Assembly: GCF_016745395.1 (NCBI RefSeq)
Contig: NZ_JAERVJ010000001.1
Coordinates: forward strand, 558,001-622,000
DNA length: 64,000 nucleotides
Reading direction: 5' to 3'
Source of the DNA: Methylocystis sp. Sn-Cys
GTDB lineage: Bacteria > Pseudomonadota > Alphaproteobacteria > Rhizobiales > Beijerinckiaceae
This document shows, in pieces, positions 47,556-55,596 of the stretch; the first letter of the stretch is position 1; each line of letters opens with the position of its first letter. A program made the translations under genes and the position numbers. The notes under the pieces were generated by a model, which saw only the letters and a list, made by a program, of their open reading frames with translations, ran no database searches and was not told the origin of the DNA.

Positions 47556-50153
47556 TCAATCGATCGAGAAAGCGACCGGTTGGAACCAGTTCCTCACGTC
47601 GGGCAGGCCGCTCTCATTCCCCGCATAAAAGATTCCCCGCTCGGGATGCTTGGCGGCGCCGTAGTCATACTTCGCGGCGAAATAGAAGGTTCGCTGCGGG
47701 AAGGGATGGAACAGGAAATATCTGTAGTTCCCGATGTTGTCGATGCCGAAGTCGAAGGACAGCCGCTCGCTCCACTTGTAGTTGACCTTTGTGTCGACGA
47801 CAAAGAAAGGATCGAAAGCCTGATATATGCCATAGGCGCGGTCGTTATTGGCCATGGTGCGCCACATCTTGCTTTGGTAGCGGCCTGCGAGTGTGAAGGC
47901 CCATTGGTCGTCGGGACGGTAGGTGAAAGCTAATGTCCCGCGCCACTCGGGAACATTTGGCACAGTCTTGCCTGCGACCGAGATTGCCCAGGGGTATTCA
48001 AAATTGGCGACGCTCGGCGCCCAGGTCGGATTGGAGATGATCCGCGCATTGAGCCATGTTGCGCTGCCCAGCACCTCCAGCCCCTTGAAGCCAAAATTGT
48101 CCTTCTGGAAGGCGACTTCGACGCCGCTGTTGCGGATGCGCTGAACATTTGTTGGCGCCTGCGTGGGAATGTTCGTGCCAGGCGAGAAGGTCAGCTGGTT
48201 GATGATGGCGTCGCGCACCTCTTCGTCGAAGAACGAGACTCGCGCAAGACCGTCCAGGCCAAGCTTCCGCTCGACCGTTAATTCTTTACTGAGGGCCGAC
48301 TCAGGCCGCAGATTGGGGTTGGGGTTGGTCGCAACGCCGTTCACCCCCACGGTTGCGAGATTATAGAGCTCGCGCACCGTCGGGAAGCGATTAGCCATGC
48401 CGACTGATCCCCTGATCGTCCATTTGTCGTCGACGATATATTCGAGCGTCCCCTTCGGCGAGAAGCGCGTGCTGTACAGGTTCGGCTGGTAGATCGGGAG
48501 CCAACCTAGCGGATTGCCAGTGAGATTGGTGCCGAAATTATTGACGCCGGCCTGCTGATTGTAGCCCTCCGAGGCCGTCCAATGCTCGCCGCGTAAGCCG
48601 GCGGTGAGCTTCAGATTATGCGCAATCGGGAAGGCGTCCTGAAACCAGAGCGCCTGGGTGCGGGTCGTGCCCTGCGCGATCGAAACCGCCGCGCCGGTGC
48701 TCGCGGCCGTGCCGGAGGGCCAGTTCGCCGTCAGCCACACAGGATTGTTGAGGTGGAATTGGTCGCCATGCAAGCCGAAGCTGATGTCGTGGCCCTGCAA
48801 CAGCCCTTCGGGGGGGCGAACAATGCCCTTCATATCGAAGAGCGTCCAATAGGTGCCGGTGAACACCGTGTTGCGGCCTGTCTGCGTGTAGCCGCCGAAG
48901 GGAATGGCGGCTGACCAGGGCGAGACCTGATCGGACTGCAGATAGGTGAAGTTGGAGGCCGAGACTTCAAAATCGAAAGGGCCGCCGCTGTTGGATCGGA
49001 TCGCGGCCGCGTTGACCATGATCTTTTCCTGGATTCGGTAATAGCCCTGAGTCGCAAAATTTTGCAGCGCGGTGTTGTTCAAGCCCCGGCCCGCGGTCGT
49101 CACGCCCCAAACCGGGCCGTATCCGGAGAAAAGGTAATTCTCGGGAATCGATGTCCCGTCATTCGACCAAAAGCCGAAAGTGTAAGTGCCTCGGATCGTC
49201 TGGCTGAAGTCATAGGCGAGCTTGAGTTTCGCATTCACCTGATCATTCGCCAGATTGCCGGTCGAGCCGATCACATTGGCGAAGGTCGTCCCATAGACGT
49301 TCGTCGCCAGATAGGCGTTGGGGTAGAAATTGGGCGAGGTCACATAGGTGAGCGGCTGCTGCGAGCCGCGCTGCCAATTGCCTGAGATCGTCCAGGACAG
49401 GTCGCCTATGCGATCGCCGGCGAAGAAGCTCGTCACATTGTTGACGAGGCCCTTGTTCATTCCATACTGCGAGAAATCCTGGACCGCGAGCGTGTCCTTG
49501 ATCGACACTTCCAGCTTCTCGGGCATGCGCGTCGTAATCTTCAGCACGCCCCCCATCGAGTTGCCCGGATATTGCGCCGCATAGGGGCCGTAGAGGAAAT
49601 CTACGCGCTCGATCTCTTCCGGCGCGACAAGGCCCCAGCGCGGCGCGCCAATGGTGTTGTCGTTGCCGACGAGCGCGGTGAGCAGAAGGTCGTCTGCGTA
49701 GACCAGGCTGCGCGCCGAGGAGCTGACGCCCCAGGTGCGGGTCTGCAGCACCGCCTGCGTGTCGCCGTTATTGCGTTTACGCACGAAAAGGCTCGGCATG
49801 TATTTCACCGCGTCTTCCGTATCGACGATGTTGATCTGCCGTTCGATCTGCTTGCGCGTGACGCTCGCGACCGTATTCGGCAACTGCCACTTTTCGACGA
49901 AGGCGGGGCGGCCGTCGGGCAGGGTCGGCGACCAGCGCGAGACGATCGGCGATGGCGCGGGCGCGCTGGCGACGCCGGGCCGCGCGGCGACTGGCCCGGC
50001 GGCGCGGGCAGGAGCCGAACTGCGAGCGGGCGCATGATGATGCTGGCCGCTGACGTCGATGGTCGGCAGCGTATGCGTCGCCTGCGCGGGCGACAGAGCG
50101 GCGAAAGTCAAAGCGCAGGCGGAGACGCCGCGCAGGAGGTAATGGCGGTACAT
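47556..50153 (-). CDS. TonB-dependent outer-membrane receptor
   Basis: The protein is 865 residues. A signal peptide (residues 1-26, ending PAQA) is followed by a TonB-box-like TLPTIDVSG and a His-rich segment (GQHHHAPARS). The plug domain (about 90-215) includes ITTRMPEKLEVS and YGPYAAQYPGNSMGG; the beta-barrel fills the rest (GIDNIGNYRYF). Such receptors import metal chelates, vitamins or other scarce solutes, powered by TonB. The two DUF2946-like genes, exbB-exbD-tonB and Cys-rich exported proteins just upstream suggest a metal, possibly copper. The substrate is inference. Confidence 0.92.
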   Translation of the reverse strand: MYRHYLLRGVSACALTFAALSPAQATHTLPTIDVSGQHHHAPARSSAPARAAGPVAARPGVASAPAPSPIVSRWSPTLPDGRPAFVEKWQLPNTVASVTRKQIERQINIVDTEDAVKYMPSLFVRKRNNGDTQAVLQTRTWGVSSSARSLVYADDLLLTALVGNDNTIGAPRWGLVAPEEIERVDFLYGPYAAQYPGNSMGGVLKITTRMPEKLEVSIKDTLAVQDFSQYGMNKGLVNNVTSFFAGDRIGDLSWTISGNWQRGSQQPLTYVTSPNFYPNAYLATNVYGTTFANVIGSTGNLANDQVNAKLKLAYDFSQTIRGTYTFGFWSNDGTSIPENYLFSGYGPVWGVTTAGRGLNNTALQNFATQGYYRIQEKIMVNAAAIRSNSGGPFDFEVSASNFTYLQSDQVSPWSAAIPFGGYTQTGRNTVFTGTYWTLFDMKGIVRPPEGLLQGHDISFGLHGDQFHLNNPVWLTANWPSGTAASTGAAVSIAQGTTRTQALWFQDAFPIAHNLKLTAGLRGEHWTASEGYNQQAGVNNFGTNLTGNPLGWLPIYQPNLYSTRFSPKGTLEYIVDDKWTIRGSVGMANRFPTVRELYNLATVGVNGVATNPNPNLRPESALSKELTVERKLGLDGLARVSFFDEEVRDAIINQLTFSPGTNIPTQAPTNVQRIRNSGVEVAFQKDNFGFKGLEVLGSATWLNARIISNPTWAPSVANFEYPWAISVAGKTVPNVPEWRGTLAFTYRPDDQWAFTLAGRYQSKMWRTMANNDRAYGIYQAFDPFFVVDTKVNYKWSERLSFDFGIDNIGNYRYFLFHPFPQRTFYFAAKYDYGAAKHPERGIFYAGNESGLPDVRNWFQPVAFSID

Positions 50154-50234
50154 TGTTGGTGTTCCCTCTTCGCGCCGGACAAGGCGGCGCGTCTGATCCC
50201 GGCGCGGCGCGCCGTTACGCTTAATCGGAGTGGA

Positions 50235-50603
50235 TCAGGCCTGGAATGGCGGCGCTCGGGCGGGCGCGTTTCGATTGAATATTTTGGCGCGCGGCGGGAC
50301 GGCCAACTCGGCGGCCGAGACACGCCAATAGGGCGCGGGGCGTCCCGCCGGCAGGCTCGGCGCGTCGCTGTCGATCGCCGTGAAGCCAAGCTGGCAGAGA
50401 GAGCAGGAGGCGTGGTCATGCGGCGCTGGCGCGTCGAAGGGCGCGGGCGGGTCGTTGCGCGCGTCCGGCGCCAAAACGATCGCCGTCTGCTTGTGGCACC
50501 CCGCATAGCCCTCGCGCGCCGCGGCGGCGCCCCATAGCGATGCGCCGAGCTGTGTCAGCAAAGCGACACAGACGATCAGCGATGCGAGTAGCCTTTGACG
50601 CAT
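50235..50603 (-). CDS. DUF2946-like exported Cys/His protein
   Basis: The protein is 122 residues with an N-terminal hydrophobic signal or anchor (SLIVCVALLTQLGASLWGAAAA). It has GCHKQ (Cys36, His37) and APHDHASCSLCQLGF (His62, His64, Cys67, Cys70), the CxxC-centred pattern of DUF2946. DUF2946 genes are often found beside metal uptake or efflux genes. It lies 81 bp upstream of the TonB receptor on the same strand. Confidence 0.75.
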   Translation of the reverse strand: MRQRLLASLIVCVALLTQLGASLWGAAAAREGYAGCHKQTAIVLAPDARNDPPAPFDAPAPHDHASCSLCQLGFTAIDSDAPSLPAGRPAPYWRVSAAELAVPPRAKIFNRNAPARAPPFQA

Positions 50604-50787
50604 GGGCCGGCAGACAGTCCCGAGAAGCCATAAGGCGCCCGCGAAAAAGGCGCCTCACGGCGTGATCGCGATTTTGGTCCATCACGTTAACCTTGATCGC
50701 GCGACGCAATGAACTCTGCCGCTGGCCGAGAAGCATTCCAAGATTGCTTGCGTTGTCAGAAATCAAAAAATCCATTAAGAGACTTTT

Positions 50788-51210
50788 ATGTCACACATGC
50801 GGGACATCGGCGAAAGAATACGCGTAGCGATCGTCATCGCTGCGGTATGGGCGCTGATGTTCGGCGTGTCCGCGTCAGGCGCGGCGGTCGCGGGCGCGAC
50901 TGACACCGTATTAAAAAACAACGATAAAACTGCCGTAGGCCTGTTCGCGTGCTTCAAGCGTCATATGACGCAGCGCGCCGACGCCGCGAGCGACAAGGCG
51001 CCCGGGACCGACTACGCCGGCAAGCATCATTGCCCGTGCTGTCTTGCGGCGAGCATGGCGGCGGCTGTTCTGCCAGAGCGGCTCGCGCCGGTGACGCGGC
51101 CGCTGCAGGCGCAGAGGCCGGTTTCCTACAGCGTGGCGGCGACATTCGCGCGGGACGGTTGCTCGTCGCCGTCCATCAATGGGGCCCGAGCGCCACCCTC
51201 TATAGTTTAG
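50788..51210 (+). CDS. Second DUF2946-like exported Cys/His protein
   Basis: The protein is 140 residues, divergent from the first. A hydrophobic N-terminal segment (VAIVIAAVWALMFGVSASGAAVAG) precedes AGKHHCPCCLAASMAA (His80, His81, Cys82, Cys84, Cys85), a cluster suited to binding a soft metal. The tail is basic and unremarkable. ATG 50788 is used; MRDIGERI at 50797 is possible. It leads the exbB-exbD-tonB operon, 155 bp upstream. Confidence 0.68.
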   Translation: MSHMRDIGERIRVAIVIAAVWALMFGVSASGAAVAGATDTVLKNNDKTAVGLFACFKRHMTQRADAASDKAPGTDYAGKHHCPCCLAASMAAAVLPERLAPVTRPLQAQRPVSYSVAATFARDGCSSPSINGARAPPSIV

Positions 51211-51364
51211 AAACTTTCCGATCGGCGGAACCTAGCGCTGGCTCGCGTGCTGCATGCGGGTAAGATCGCCGGTCAGAGACGCCCTTGAGCGTCCAAGATC
51301 ACAATAAAATCAATGTCAGACGCCGTTGCTGCTCTGCGCGCGCCGTCGAGGATGAGTGAGTTCT

Positions 51365-52006
51365 ATGGACCATACGTCGCTTTCCCCGCTCGCCATGTTT
51401 CTCAACGCCGGCCCGGTCGGCAAGGTCGTCATGGCGGCTCTGCTTCTCGCTTCGGTCTGGACCTGGGTGCTGATCATCGAAGGCGCCACAGCCGTCATTC
51501 GCATCGCCAAGGCGACTAAGGAGGCGCGCGCGGGCGGGCCGGTCGGCCTTCTCGAACCCGTCGCCGCTGCTGGCCGGGAAGCTTTCGCGCTCGATCTTCC
51601 CGATGAGACGACCGGCGACAAGCGTGAGCGAATTGCCGAAAATATGAGCCGCGCTGCCCGCGAATTTCTCACCAAGGCCGAGGGCGGCCTGCCCAATCTC
51701 GCCGTGATCTCCTCGGTCGCGCCCTTCGTCGGCCTCTTCGGCACGGTTTGGGGCATCATGACGAGCTTCGCCGGGATTGCGCAGTCGCAGGACACCAGCC
51801 TCGCGGTTGTCGCGCCGGGCATTGCGGAAGCGCTCGCCGCGACCGCTTATGGCCTCGCCGCCGCCATTCCGGCTTCGGTCGGCTATAACCGTATCGGCTC
51901 CTCCTTCTCGCGCCTCGGCCAGCAGGTTGCGCATTACATCGAGGACGAGGCGCTGCGCATGACCAGCGCGCCGAACGCCCGCCGTTCGCAAAAGGAGGCC
52001 GCATAA
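51365..52006 (+). CDS. exbB: ExbB/TolQ-family proton channel subunit
   Basis: The protein is 213 residues from ATG 51365. Three membrane helices are visible, including MAALLLASVWTWVLIIEGA, and SSVAPFVGLFGTVWGIMTSFAGIAQ and EALAATAYGLAAAIPASVGYN, the classic ExbB/TolQ signatures. It forms the proton channel that energises TonB. It is directly followed by exbD (no gap). Confidence 0.93.
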   Translation: MDHTSLSPLAMFLNAGPVGKVVMAALLLASVWTWVLIIEGATAVIRIAKATKEARAGGPVGLLEPVAAAGREAFALDLPDETTGDKRERIAENMSRAAREFLTKAEGGLPNLAVISSVAPFVGLFGTVWGIMTSFAGIAQSQDTSLAVVAPGIAEALAATAYGLAAAIPASVGYNRIGSSFSRLGQQVAHYIEDEALRMTSAPNARRSQKEAA

Positions 52007-52504
52007 ATGGCGCTCCCGACCCGCTTCAAGAACAACAACGACCTTTATCAGCCGCTCGCCGACATCAATGTCACGCCGCTCGTCGACGTGATGCTGGTGC
52101 TGCTCATCATCTTCATGGTGACCGCGCCGCTGCTCGCCAAAGGCGTGAAGGTCAATCTGCCTCAGGCCAGCGCCGCGCAGCCGATCAATCAGAAGGACCC
52201 GATCGTCGTCACGGTCGGCAAGGACGGCAAGGTGTCGCTCGGCGCCGATCCGGTGTCCGAGGAGGCGCTCATCGACGGCATTCGCGCCATGATGGGCGAG
52301 GACGTCACGCGCGTCGTGCATGTCCGCGGCGACACCGAGGCGGTCTATGGCGAAGTCGTCGCGGTGATGGACAGACTCGCGACGAATGGCATCACCCATA
52401 TCGCCATCATGACCAATTCGCGCAGCAAGACCGGCTCGGCGGCGAAAGCCGCTGCGCCTGCTGCGCCCGCCGCGCCGGCTCCGGCGGGAGGGGCGGCGAA
52501 ATGA
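52007..52504 (+). CDS. exbD: ExbD/TolR-family biopolymer transport protein
   Basis: The protein is 165 residues. One N-terminal membrane helix follows the motif [35 protein letters not shown], whose Asp carries the proton. The tail is Ala/Pro-rich. It starts at the exbB stop and overlaps tonB by four bases, so it is translationally coupled. Confidence 0.94.
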
Positions 52505-53214
52505 CGGACTTCGCCCTCAGCCCCGACTACGCCAGCCAGCCCGACGAGCCGGAAGGCGCGCCGCCGGTCAATCCGCCGTGGCTGCGCCCCGTCGCCGTCA
52601 CGGTGATCGTCGCCGCGCATATCGCTGTCTTCGCGGCCTTCCTTTACGCGCCGGCGCCCAAGACGATCTCGCTCGACTCGCTCTCCATGGATCTCGTCCA
52701 GGAGGGCGACTTCATCGAGCAGCAGGAAGTGAGCGCTGCGGAGGACACGCCCCCGCCGGTCGCCGTCGAGCAGCCGGACCTCGCCTTGCCGCCGCCGGTC
52801 GTGATGGCGCCGGACGCGATCCCGCTCGCGGTGAAAAAGGACGACACCGAGAAGCTCGAGAAAAAGCAGGAAGAGCGCAAGGAAATCGAGCGCGCCGAGC
52901 AACGCCGCGAAGCGCAGGCGCGTCGTCGCGCCGGCGCGCCGAATGCGGGCGGCGCCACCAGCGGCGCGTCGCAGGCGAGCTGCCTCGCCCATGTCGCCGC
53001 CTCGCTGCGCCAGCATACGCCGGGCTCGACGAGCCTCGGCGCCGGCACGGCCCATGTGACCTTTCATGTGAACGCCGGCGGCGGCATTTCGGGCGTTTCG
53101 GCTTCCGGCTCGACCCCGGCGCATGCGGCGCTGGCGCGGCGCATCGTGGGCTCGTCACGCGGTCCGGGTAGCTGCGGCTCCGCCTTTGTAAGCCAAGCCT
53201 TCGCCTTCCATTGA
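52501..53214 (+). CDS. tonB: TonB energy transducer
   Basis: The protein is 237 residues. It has a cytoplasmic start, one membrane helix ([23 protein letters not shown], about 33-55), a Pro/Glu/Lys-rich periplasmic spacer ([20 protein letters not shown]) and a C-terminal TonB-like domain ([39 protein letters not shown]). The C-terminal part contains two cysteines (SCLAH and GSCGSAF), unusual for TonB. It should couple ExbB-ExbD to the TonB receptor on the other side of the cluster. Confidence 0.88.
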
Positions 53215-53267
53215 CCTTTGCCGGCGGACTCGCAAGAGCCCGCCGCTTCTCTTGTTGGAAGCACGCC

Positions 53268-53702
53268 ATGAAGGTTCTCCTCAGCGGGCGCGTCGCATTT
53301 CTTTGCGCGCTCGTCCTTACCGGCGCCGCGCGGGCGGAGGCCCCCAAGCCGTCGTCCGCCCCAGCTCCCGCCGCAGCGGCAAAGCCGGCGCCTGCGCCAG
53401 CCGCGCCGAAACCCGCGCCTCAAACGGCGCCCGAGCCCGCCTCTGGCATGTCCGAGAGCAAATATCTCGGTCTGCTCTACGCCGAGATCGCCAAGCATAC
53501 GCCGGAGGAAAACGCCTCCGGGCCGGGCGAGGTGAGGGCGAGCTTCATCGTCGGCGCCTCTGGCAAGATCGAGAAAGTGACGATCGACAAGACGACGAGC
53601 CCGGCGCATGCCGAGATGGTGAAGAAAATACTGGCGGCGGTTGTCGTTCCTGCCCCGCCCGGCGGCGCGATGGATGTCGGTCAGACCTTCAAGTTCCGCT
53701 GA
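53268..53702 (+). CDS. Secreted TonB-C-terminal-like protein
   Basis: The protein is 144 residues. It has a cleavable signal peptide (FLCALVLTGAARA) rather than a membrane anchor, then a Pro/Ala-rich linker and a TonB-C-terminal-like domain (YLGLLYAEIAKHTPEENASGPGEVRASFIVGASGKIEKVTI ... VVPAPPGG). It would be a free periplasmic TonB domain. It is 53 bp after tonB and before the beta-propeller gene. Confidence 0.72.
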   Translation: MKVLLSGRVAFLCALVLTGAARAEAPKPSSAPAPAAAAKPAPAPAAPKPAPQTAPEPASGMSESKYLGLLYAEIAKHTPEENASGPGEVRASFIVGASGKIEKVTIDKTTSPAHAEMVKKILAAVVVPAPPGGAMDVGQTFKFR

Positions 53703-53725
53703 AGCGAAACCATTAGAGGGAAGTC

Positions 53726-54991
53726 ATGGGGTCGATGGCCATTCCGCGCGTGATTATCATATCGGCCGCCGCGTTCGGCGTGAGCGGCGGCGCCGACGCC
53801 GAGCTCGGCGCGCCGGCTCCGGCGCCGGCCGAAGGGCATCGACATAGCGCGCTGGCCTGCGCCGAACGCAAGCCGGATTGCGCCGCGACCGTCAATCCGG
53901 CGTACGACGCCAAGGGCAAGCTTTGGGTCGCTTACGCCATCGAAAAGACGGTCTATGTCGCCTCTTCCGCGGACGGGGCCAAAAGCTTTTCCGCGCCCGT
54001 CGCGATCGCGTCGGTCAGCGACGGCGTCATCGACGCCCATGGCGACGCACGGCCGAAGATCGTTCCCCTCGACGACGGAACGCTGCTCGCCAGCTATACG
54101 ACGCGGCCCGACAAGCAGATGATCGGCACGATCTTCACGGCGCGCTCGACCGACGGCGGCAAAAGCTTCTCCCCGCCCCAGGCGCTGCTCGCGTCCGGCG
54201 GGCAGCGCTTCGAGACTTTCGTCGTCACGCCCAAGGGGCGCCTCTACGCCGGCTGGCTCGACAAGACCAACGCTCTGAAGGCCAAGGCCGAGGGCAAGGA
54301 GTTCGAGGGCAGCGGCGTCGCCTTCGCCTGGTCGGACGATAAGGGGCAGAGCTTTGCGGGCAAAAAAATCCTGATGGACCACGCCTGCGAATGTTGCCGC
54401 ATGTCTGCGGCGCTGGATCGCGACGGCCTGCCGGTGTTTCTGTGGCGGCAGGTCTTCGACGGCAATGTTCGCGATCACTACGCCGCGAAGCTTTCCGCCG
54501 ATGGCGCAACGCTGACGGGCGGGCGCGTTTCCGACGATAATTGGGCGATCAATTCCTGCCCGCACCACGGCCCCAGCCTCGCCGTCGACGCCCATGGCGG
54601 ATGGCACGCGGTCTGGTTCACGAAGGGCAAGAATCGGCAGGGGCTTTTCTACGCGCATAGCGAAGATTCGGGAAAAAGCTTCTCCAGCCCCGAGAAATTC
54701 GGCGACGACGCCAAGGCCCCGGGCCACCCCGTCGTGCTCGGGGCGAAAGGCCGTCTCTATCGCGTCTGGAAGGAGTTCGACGGGACGACGACGACCATCC
54801 CGCTGCAGCTCTCGCGTGATGGCGGCAAAAGCTGGAGCGCGCCGAAAATCCTCGCGCAGACCGACGACGCCTCGGATCATCCGGAGCTCGTCGCCTACAA
54901 GGGCGCGGCTTATCTTTCGTGGGTTACGCATAAGGAGGGCTATCGCCTGCTGCCGCTTCCCCGGGACGAGAAGAGTGCCGCAGTGCGATGA
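53726..54991 (+). CDS. Exported BNR/sialidase-like beta-propeller with a Cys/His cluster
   Basis: The protein is 421 residues with a signal peptide (VIIISAAAFGVSGGADA). Five Asp-box repeats are seen: SADGAKSFSA, STDGGKSFSP, SDDKGQSFAG, SEDSGKSFSS and SRDGGKSWSA, so it folds as a beta-propeller. It has an unusual metal-ligand-like cluster DHACECCRMS (His219, Cys221, Cys223, Cys224) and NSCPHHGPS (Cys278, His280, His281). True sialidase catalytic residues were not identified. Position suggests a periplasmic metal-binding or chaperone role in the TonB locus. This is inference. The thioredoxin-like gene overlaps its stop by four bases. Confidence 0.75.
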   Translation: MGSMAIPRVIIISAAAFGVSGGADAELGAPAPAPAEGHRHSALACAERKPDCAATVNPAYDAKGKLWVAYAIEKTVYVASSADGAKSFSAPVAIASVSDGVIDAHGDARPKIVPLDDGTLLASYTTRPDKQMIGTIFTARSTDGGKSFSPPQALLASGGQRFETFVVTPKGRLYAGWLDKTNALKAKAEGKEFEGSGVAFAWSDDKGQSFAGKKILMDHACECCRMSAALDRDGLPVFLWRQVFDGNVRDHYAAKLSADGATLTGGRVSDDNWAINSCPHHGPSLAVDAHGGWHAVWFTKGKNRQGLFYAHSEDSGKSFSSPEKFGDDAKAPGHPVVLGAKGRLYRVWKEFDGTTTTIPLQLSRDGGKSWSAPKILAQTDDASDHPELVAYKGAAYLSWVTHKEGYRLLPLPRDEKSAAVR

Positions 54992-55596
54992 AGAAGGTGA
55001 TCGCCAATCTGCGTGCCGCCTGTCATTCCCGACGCGCGCAGGAATCAAGGAGCGGCTTTCGCGTCTCTGCTCTGGATTCCCGGTCGAGCCTTTGGCTCGC
55101 CGGGAATGACAGATGGCACACTCTCGCCGCTGGTCTATCTCTCTTGGCCTTCGTGGTTGTCGCCGCTTCGAGCGCCCATGCGCTCGATTTCAAGCCCTAT
55201 GGTCGCGGCGCCTTCTCGCAGATCGCCAAGGCGCATGCGGGGCGGCCGCTGATGATTCACTTCTGGTCCGTCACCTGCCCGCCCTGCCTCGCCGAGCTGG
55301 CGCAATGGGCGCAGATGACGGCCGAACACAAGGATGTCGACATCGTCTTCGTCAACGTCGATAGCGAAGAAGATCGCGCGCGGGCGGCGGCGCGCGCCGA
55401 GAAGGCCGGGCTCGGCAAGTCGGCGCATTACGGTTTTGCGGATGATTTCGTCGAGAAGCTCTATTTCGAGGCTGATAAAACGTGGCGGGGCGAATTGCCG
55501 TTCACCGCGCTTGTGGCGCCCGACGGCGGGGTGATCGCCGTGACCGGCGCAATCGACGATCCGCTCGTTCTGCAGTGGCTGGAAAAACACAGATAA
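54988..55596 (+). CDS. TlpA-like periplasmic thioredoxin with a repeat inserted in its signal peptide
   Basis: The protein is 202 residues, and the ATG overlaps the preceding stop (ATGA). It has WSVTCPPCLAELAQW with the active-site Cys97-Pro-Pro-Cys100, and VNVDSEEDRARA typical of TlpA-type reductases. The N-terminus is split: MKKVIANLRAA, then about 30 residues (HSRRAQESRSGF ... WLAGND) encoded by a family-A repeat, then the hydrophobic core HTLAAGLSLLAFVVVAASSAHA. It would reduce disulfides in the periplasm, perhaps those of its Cys-rich neighbour. Whether the protein is still exported is untested. Confidence 0.82.
   Translation: MKKVIANLRAACHSRRAQESRSGFRVSALDSRSSLWLAGNDRWHTLAAGLSLLAFVVVAASSAHALDFKPYGRGAFSQIAKAHAGRPLMIHFWSVTCPPCLAELAQWAQMTAEHKDVDIVFVNVDSEEDRARAAARAEKAGLGKSAHYGFADDFVEKLYFEADKTWRGELPFTALVAPDGGVIAVTGAIDDPLVLQWLEKHR
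55022..55110. repeat. Palindromic repeat, family A (copy A4) inside a coding sequence
   Basis: An 89-bp unit, GTCATTCCCGACGCGCGC ... GCCGGGAATGAC, lies within the 5' end of the thioredoxin-like gene, keeping the frame open. It is more diverged at its left part than the other copies and lacks the TTCAAACGG tail. Confidence 0.88.

Follow-up and report, generated by a model that had tools for sequence, protein, structure and literature searches.

The 64-kb window analysed here (contig C8, positions 558001-622000, of the 4.02-Mb Methylocystis genome G000; individual loci carry L numbers below) probably holds a copper-acquisition locus whose two divergent operons are both headed by leader peptides of the CruR type, which would sense copper during their own translation. 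The two transcription units lie between pntB on one side and a hemerythrin-like gene on the other. On the minus strand, an open reading frame (ORF) of 122 amino acids (aa) with a DUF2946 domain (leader A) is followed, after 81 nucleotides (nt), by the gene of a TonB-dependent receptor; on the plus strand, a DUF2946 ORF of 140 aa (leader B) is followed, after 145 nt, by exbB, exbD, tonB, a second tonB-like gene (tonB2) and the genes of a beta-propeller and a thioredoxin, a compact series with two 4-nt overlaps and a largest gap of about 53 nt. An initial annotation, made from the DNA letters alone, had proposed acquisition of copper, or of another metal, at this site. Every gene that it named was found where it had been placed, by Pfam and ORF translations, and its motifs CSLC, KHHCPCC, HACECC, CPHH and CPPC are all present in the translations. 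The features are, by window position:

47556..50153, minus strand: TonB-dependent receptor, 865 aa; Pfam Plug and barrel, homologues; best NCBIfam model 99.8 bits, cut-off 316.85
50154..50234, minus strand: gap from the leader A stop to the receptor start, 81 nt; foldable RNA, suggestive only
50235..50603, minus strand: leader A, CruR-type DUF2946 ORF, 122 aa; CSLC, 45 residues, RAPP, 3 residues, stop
50604..50787, no strand: divergent start region between the two leaders, 184 nt; without a good Fur, Irr or Zur box
50788..51210, plus strand: leader B, CruR-type DUF2946 ORF, 140 aa; HHCPCC, 48 residues, RAPP, 3 residues, stop
51356..52006, plus strand: ExbB proton channel subunit; Pfam MotA_ExbB
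52007..52504, plus strand: ExbD; Pfam ExbD
52501..53214, plus strand: TonB-like protein, 4-nt overlap with exbD; named from position and NCBIfam TonB (26.7 bits, cut-off 315)
53268..53702, plus strand: second small TonB-C-like protein with a signal-peptide-like start; 32% identical to the TonB C-terminus in L041; NCBIfam 19.6 bits, cut-off 40
53726..54991, plus strand: exported propeller with C221-E-C223-C224, H251 and C278-P-H-H; BNR_2, model confidence 87, conservation; predicted copper-receiving protein
54988..55596, plus strand: thioredoxin-like protein with CPPC, 4-nt overlap with the propeller gene; Redoxin/AhpC-TSA; predicted reductant of the propeller cysteines

Two ORFs with the anatomy of CruR

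Both DUF2946 proteins score above the curated Pfam cut-off of 23.7 bits (24.7 for leader A, 25.2 for leader B), and both end in RAPP plus three residues, a feature on which the initial annotation was silent. This is the build of CruR of Bordetella pertussis, whose nascent chain senses copper via a CXXC motif while RAPP arrests the ribosome, and in which release of the arrest lets Rho terminate transcription ahead of a TonB receptor gene (PMC9426467; here and below, statements on cited work refer to the parts of each source that were covered). A later study with purified components reproduced the arrest of CruR at RAPP, and both RAPP and RGPP were found to support arrest in a number of contexts (PMC12992588). 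Leader A (CSLC...RAPP) is the first gene of its unit and stands directly ahead of the gene of a presumptive copper receptor; its 45 residues between CSLC and RAPP match the spacing of CruR. Leader B (CPCC...RAPP), which heads the exbB-to-thioredoxin operon, has 48 residues between CPCC and RAPP, and 48-51 across 19 Methylocystis loci; when counted from the CC pair, its register is approximately that of leader A. In B. pertussis, a CruR variant with two additional residues in this spacing was functional and one with five was not (PMC9426467). We class leader B as a CruR-like variant. A pattern scan for the leader anatomy returned two matches in the 64 kb, namely leaders A and B, and none in 40 first-order Markov shuffles.

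A leader of this build could in principle act in the opposite sense. CutF-type leaders share the anatomy and activate the downstream gene with copper via a stem-loop (PMC9973294); were the present leaders CutF-like, copper would turn the downstream genes on and the locus would handle copper excess. The gap after leader A is short enough (81 nt) to fold, and the RNA from leader A to the receptor can indeed adopt a structure in which the leader stop codon lies in a stem and the RxPP codons lie opposite the ribosome site of the receptor gene. However, a receptor with ExbBD-TonB serves import, a DUF2946 ORF that carries CxxC and RAPP belongs to the CruR type, and the folding of the gap is without covariation support, which leaves a copper-activated locus very unlikely. 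In the alignment of the gap RNA, 93.8% of cells pair, yet covariation does not go beyond shuffles: the observed values were reached in 63 of 500 shuffles for paired percentage, in 50 for the covariation score and in 24 for two-sided pairs, and the alifold covariation term is -0.1. The duplex of RxPP codons and ribosome site reaches p <0.05 for A leaders in 4 of 17 cases and for B leaders in 1 of 19; among ten representatives, matched pairs (-15.7) hardly differ from mismatched ones (-15.2). For a conserved RNA switch after leader A, the covariation is unconvincing and the pairing is at chance level in most species; the fold between leader A and the receptor is suggestive only.

The DUF2946 proteins had initially been taken to capture metal themselves. 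Stable proteins that bind copper in the periplasm during its uptake would have the signal-peptide-like starts and the Cys/His clusters that are seen here. Against this, all seven DUF2946 matches of the genome (E-value 0.001; five above the cut-off) end in RAPP or RGPP within eight residues of the C-terminus, the genes come first in their operons, and CruR is neither complemented in trans nor seen in proteomes (PMC9426467). A stable-protein role is hard to credit, and the DUF2946 ORFs most likely encode cis-acting, copper-sensing arrest leader peptides rather than metal-capture proteins.

Conservation in Methylocystis

The propeller gene was found in 24 of the 41 genomes searched, all 24 of them within the genus, to which 25 of the genomes belong; the lone miss there is a 59%-complete genome, and the closest named propeller, of Methylocystis iwaonis, is 98% identical. 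We took the locus of the window together with those of 20 relatives out of 23, all but L033-L035, and after removal of L051 and L054, which run into contig ends, 19 complete loci remained. ExbB, ExbD, TonB, the second TonB, the propeller and the thioredoxin are present in all 18 complete relatives, and leader B is present in 19 of 19 loci. Leader A with R[AG]PP, divergent and ahead of the receptor, occurs in 16 of 19; at L041 the motif reads RASP, L048 is without such a receptor, and at L060 the receptor is another one, which lies downstream and has a RAPP leader of its own. When 72 leader sequences were placed in a tree, all 19 B leaders grouped together (support 99/95), and the 17 A-type leaders of Methylocystis fell outside this group, at several places and mixed with leaders of other bacteria; since the alignment has few columns and the branches are long, we draw no further claim from this tree. 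The CxxC and CPCC/CPDCC types standing face to face suggest that the locus may have two copper thresholds.

A cysteine-bearing propeller and its thioredoxin

The propeller gene product matches Pfam BNR_2 (42.9 bits) and has a propeller fold with BNR/Asp-box repeats. Its model (predicted local distance difference test, pLDDT, 87) matches lectins and sialidases in Foldseek at template-modelling scores of about 0.4-0.6; there is no match to an NCBIfam family, and a profile search returned no solved relative at E 0.01. C221, C223, C224 and C278 are found in 81 of 81 propeller sequences, H251 in 79 and H280 in 77, where the conservation of CECC follows in part from the scan patterns with which the loci were collected. 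The thioredoxin has CxxC and a cis-Pro in 78 of 78 sequences and scores just above the Pfam cut-off for Redoxin/AhpC-TSA. It reaches 26.6 bits against the TlpA model NF047696 (cut-off 230), a likeness in working only. TlpA reduces the copper chaperone ScoI and subunit II of cytochrome c oxidase (PMC6696091), and it is on this ground that we model the thioredoxin-propeller pair on TlpA-ScoI. The AhpC_TSA genes listed among the genes of cruR operons (PMC9426467) may include thioredoxins of the type at this locus.

Four Methylocystis genomes encode a second propeller, about 31% identical, that keeps CxCC and CPH (as CACC and GCPH). In all three loci fetched at length (L194, L195, L196) it follows a RAPP leader and a receptor; the leader at L194 has no Pfam match. 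No thioredoxin accompanies it in 3 of 3, and the propeller-thioredoxin pair is therefore not obligatory. More distant propeller relatives (L065, L066) lack the cysteines, and a search for plasmid copies of the propeller gave no match at 1e-20.

The module outside the genus and its copper neighbours

A genome scan with the propeller profile and the patterns [RL][VA]WKEFDG and D[HND][TAS]CECCR confirmed at least 561 places, and we analysed the best 80. By the organism names on the sequence records, from which lineages were assigned, these span Methylocystis, Methylosinus, Bradyrhizobium, Gallionella and other Nitrosomonadales, Terasakiella, Paramagnetospirillum and Reyranella, as well as Acetobacteraceae and a few gammaproteobacterial metagenome-assembled genomes; many are close relatives, so that locus counts do not represent independent events. 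A thioredoxin lies near the propeller in 77 of the 80 loci. The ORF directly upstream on the same strand, found in 52 loci, is a TonB receptor in all 39 that were scanned with Pfam (13 were not). Among the 59 loci with at least 4.5 kb of upstream flank (the other 21 were excluded from this count), 45 have a CruR-type leader within 4.8 kb upstream; the leader pattern is absent from 340 kb of flank more than 6.5 kb away from the propeller. By group, a leader was found in 12/12 loci of Methylocystaceae, 19/19 of Bradyrhizobium, 1/12 of betaproteobacteria and 13/16 of others. In the 15 loci without a pattern match, no clear leader was seen by eye among the small ORFs upstream of the receptor; L117 has no candidate receptor ORF, and L139 and L140 have an ORF that ends in RGPP plus four to five residues and falls outside the Cys pattern. 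The propeller-thioredoxin module with its receptor occurs both in and beyond methanotrophs.

The neighbours of the module in other lineages point to copper. In Bradyrhizobium the order is leader, receptor, propeller, thioredoxin, PCuAC, YcnI (DUF1775) and CopC-CopD; in the 20 Bradyrhizobium loci with enough flank, tblastn finds PCuAC in 18, YcnI in 13 and CopCD in 14, and Pfam confirms the copper neighbours on L106 and CopC and CopD also on L128 and L153. Outside Bradyrhizobium, PCuAC lies downstream in 5 of 42 loci and YcnI in 0 of 42, and the Methylocystis loci have no tblastn match to PCuAC, YcnI or CopCD in the window. The Gallionella-type order is receptor, propeller, thioredoxin, TonB, ExbB, ExbD. 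A Cys-rich Csp1-like protein is encoded in 5 of 17 betaproteobacterial loci (L150:6966-7436, L113, L125, L136 and L147, all in genomes of the iron-oxidiser type); the protein of L150, the only one tested, matches the solved Csp1 (5fjd, E 4.8e-20), and Pfam assigned no copper family to four of the Csp1-like proteins.

As a check on loci chosen independently of the motif patterns, 349 genomes of the phylum were searched at 1e-20 with the profile, which itself contains the cysteines, and gave 12 matches in 8 of 184 genera. Nine loci among them, four of which come from one genus, had not been studied before: all nine have CECC, a receptor and a thioredoxin, eight have CPH, six a leader, six PCuAC, and two YcnI with CopCD. 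A class sample of 337 genomes held three strong homologues outside the genus, all with an adjoining thioredoxin and a leader in the fetched stretch.

The proposal of copper acquisition is thus supported by the CruR-type leaders and by PCuAC, YcnI, CopCD and Csp1-like proteins beside homologous modules. We consider the chances somewhat better than even that the CxCC/CPH propeller and its thioredoxin form a new and widespread periplasmic copper-receiving module, which in many Proteobacteria would be the usual partner of TonB receptors under CruR control and would hand Cu(I) to PCuAC, to CopCD, to a store of the Csp1 kind or to the supply of methane monooxygenase, and that in Methylocystis the receptor and its energy supply each have a copper threshold of their own, given by an arrest leader of its own Cys type.

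The receptor, the TonB machinery and other metals

Of the 18 NCBIfam models listed for the receptor at E 0.001, none scores above its cut-off, and TIGR01778 (OprC) does not appear among them. The best of the models are heme and hemoglobin receptors, and in a profile search the nearest solved relative is the heme receptor PhuR; the nine Protein Data Bank sequences found by this profile at 1e-5 do not include 9rvq, which we take, with its identity unverified, to be CrtA. A fold search with the receptor model (pLDDT 70.5) was set aside, as its matches were unspecific. From its sequence, the receptor appears to be a family of its own within Methylocystis and Methylosinus.

The heme matches would speak for an iron, heme or siderophore uptake locus in which the Cys/His proteins would be incidental. 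The 99.8 bits of the best model, however, are far under its cut-off of 316.85, the 184-nt region between the leaders holds no good Fur or Irr box (best 7/19 and 5/14 mismatches), and neither the CruR-type leaders nor the copper neighbours fit such a locus; we deem this reading highly improbable. The box searches also returned no Zur box. A cobalamin receptor, which the initial annotation had named as an outcome that would speak against its proposal, is not indicated either: the model TIGR01779 gives 32.2 bits at a cut-off of 599.7. Iron, zinc and cobalamin readings were accordingly rejected, with no good boxes and receptor models below cut-off. Uptake of zinc, nickel or cobalt, for which one could point to His-only CutF-like proteins adjoining nickel/cobalt genes (PMC9973294) and to a DUF2946 gene at the czr locus in a Caulobacter Zur table (PMC4176598), is scarcely plausible given the Cys motifs here, the copper-specific neighbours in other lineages (PCuAC, CopCD, Csp1-like) and the missing Zur box between the leaders.

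The weakest part of the initial annotation is the naming of two proteins as TonB. Their position, conservation and resemblance to each other (32%, E 3e-5, in L041) support it, but neither has a Pfam TonB_C match, and the best NCBIfam scores, for TonB with the first and for the AgmX/PglI C-terminal model with the second, are both below cut-off. The second, small gene probably starts at ATG 53268, with a signal-peptide-like N-terminus. L083 and other Methylocystis relatives have up to four TonB-like genes in a row, as against two in the window. PepSY_TM is not among the Pfam matches of the locus; four PepSY_TM matches lie elsewhere in the genome.

A proposed mechanism and what weighs against it

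By analogy with CruR of B. pertussis, the ribosome would stall at RAPP when copper is low and the downstream genes would be expressed; copper binding to the nascent Cys pair would release the stall, Rho would terminate transcription and uptake would stop. Alternatively, for leader A, the ribosome site of the receptor gene might be masked upon stall release. As the leaders would stall when copper is scarce, the pair is predicted to switch uptake on at copper scarcity. The receptor, energized by its own ExbBD-TonB, would then bring copper through the outer membrane, probably in chelated form; the propeller would take the copper at its Cys/His site (CxCC, H251, CPH), its cysteines kept reduced by the thioredoxin as TlpA does for ScoI. 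From there, periplasmic carriers could take the copper over and eventually supply particulate methane monooxygenase.

Several observations weigh against this picture. The receptor matches no copper-receptor family by sequence, most betaproteobacterial loci are without a recognisable leader, and the spacing of leader B is three residues above the 45 of CruR. The leader A of a close relative (L041:4699-4833) has, in RASP, a natural variant of the arrest motif, and Methylosinus sporium (L090) keeps leader B, with neither leader A nor a nearby thioredoxin found. The C>G bubble, with a mean of 0.21 over 17 A leaders against a coding null mean of 0.129 (95% point 0.205), is borderline for leader A and absent for leader B. 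To these come the share of the scan patterns in the CECC conservation and the second-propeller loci without thioredoxin.

Comparison with known systems

The closest known system is cruR-crtA(bfrG)-bp2921 of B. pertussis, which shares the DUF2946 leader with CxxC and RAPP directly ahead of a TonB receptor gene (PMC9426467, PMC12914433); some crtA operons also include exbBD and tonB genes, as does the Methylocystis locus. In contrast, the Methylocystis locus has two divergent leaders and a receptor of another family, and it has the propeller and thioredoxin where more than 75% of crtA loci hold a PepSY_TM protein (PMC12914433). The pcuABCDE operon of Bradyrhizobium japonicum begins with a cruR homologue, followed by a receptor, PCuAC, YcnI and a copper transporter (PMC9426467, PMC8424229, PMC6696091). 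The Bradyrhizobium loci collected here combine genes of this type with the propeller-thioredoxin pair, whereas the parts of the pcuABCDE descriptions covered mention no propeller and the Methylocystis loci are without PCuAC, YcnI and CopCD in the window. CutF-CutO of Rhodobacter capsulatus shares an exported Cys-motif leader with a C-terminal Pro motif before a copper gene, but differs in that copper activates via a stem-loop over the ribosome site and export of the leader is needed (PMC9973294). OprC and MbnT are likewise TonB-dependent copper importers, as proposed for the Methylocystis receptor; this receptor is not matched by TIGR01778, and the locus has no sigma/anti-sigma pair and no methanobactin genes. 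The genome does encode MbnB (449.9 bits, cut-off 325, on contig C17), and methanobactin uptake is therefore likely a separate route. As in TlpA-ScoI, a periplasmic thioredoxin that reduces the cysteines of a copper carrier (PMC6696091), the thioredoxin here would serve a copper protein, though it is only distantly TlpA-like and its likely partner is the propeller.

The initial annotation held that the set as a whole matches no named system. This stands at most for the propeller-thioredoxin half, as the regulatory half belongs to a system with a name, CruR (PMC9426467). CruR-type control being already known, the new part is the twin leaders and the CxCC/CPH propeller-thioredoxin module. On neither was anything found in the literature covered, which leaves aside figures, supplements and most subscription papers, where the propeller could be listed. 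The main texts of the CruR, CrtA and CutF papers contain none of the terms BNR, sialidase, propeller and thioredoxin, and the main-text passages of three methanotroph copper papers, supplements aside, name no such operon.

Other leader-type ORFs in the genome

A lone pmoC (PF04896; L008:6262-7631, G000:C20:119261-120630) is preceded by a CruR-like leader in which HHHGLCCILHC lies upstream of a terminal RAPQSPRAPP plus eight residues. In Methylocystis, 9 of the 11 members of this pmoC group (71-100% identity) have a leader of this kind ahead of them, L163 and L175 being the exceptions; of 17 other pmoC-like copies that were checked, none has one. The gene of this methane monooxygenase subunit may thus be under nascent-chain copper control. 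At L011:2862-7603 (G000:C17:256861-261602), a RAPP leader is followed by an extracytoplasmic function sigma factor, a FecR-like protein and an STN-containing receptor of the siderophore type, an MbnIRT-like order. Three leader-type ORFs surround one TonB receptor at L009:7640-12064 (G000:C14), one with RGPP 163 nt ahead of the receptor and two, with RGPP and RAPP, after it with no clear gene behind. A CC-type RAPP leader at L010:7248-8232 (G000:C8:697247-698231) stands before a small ORF whose sole match, to an RHS repeat, is weak.

Implications

Methanotrophs need much copper for particulate methane monooxygenase. The copper-uptake literature that we found centres on methanobactin, and the locus described here is a second conserved candidate route, with what would be a built-in copper switch. 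The leader ahead of the lone pmoC would place a methane monooxygenase subunit, too, under nascent-chain copper sensing. Finally, the locus ties to copper a family that databases call 'sialidase': in Bradyrhizobium, in bacteria of the Reyranella type and in Gallionellaceae the propeller-thioredoxin pair again lies next to copper genes, so that a single biochemical test would re-annotate a large family.

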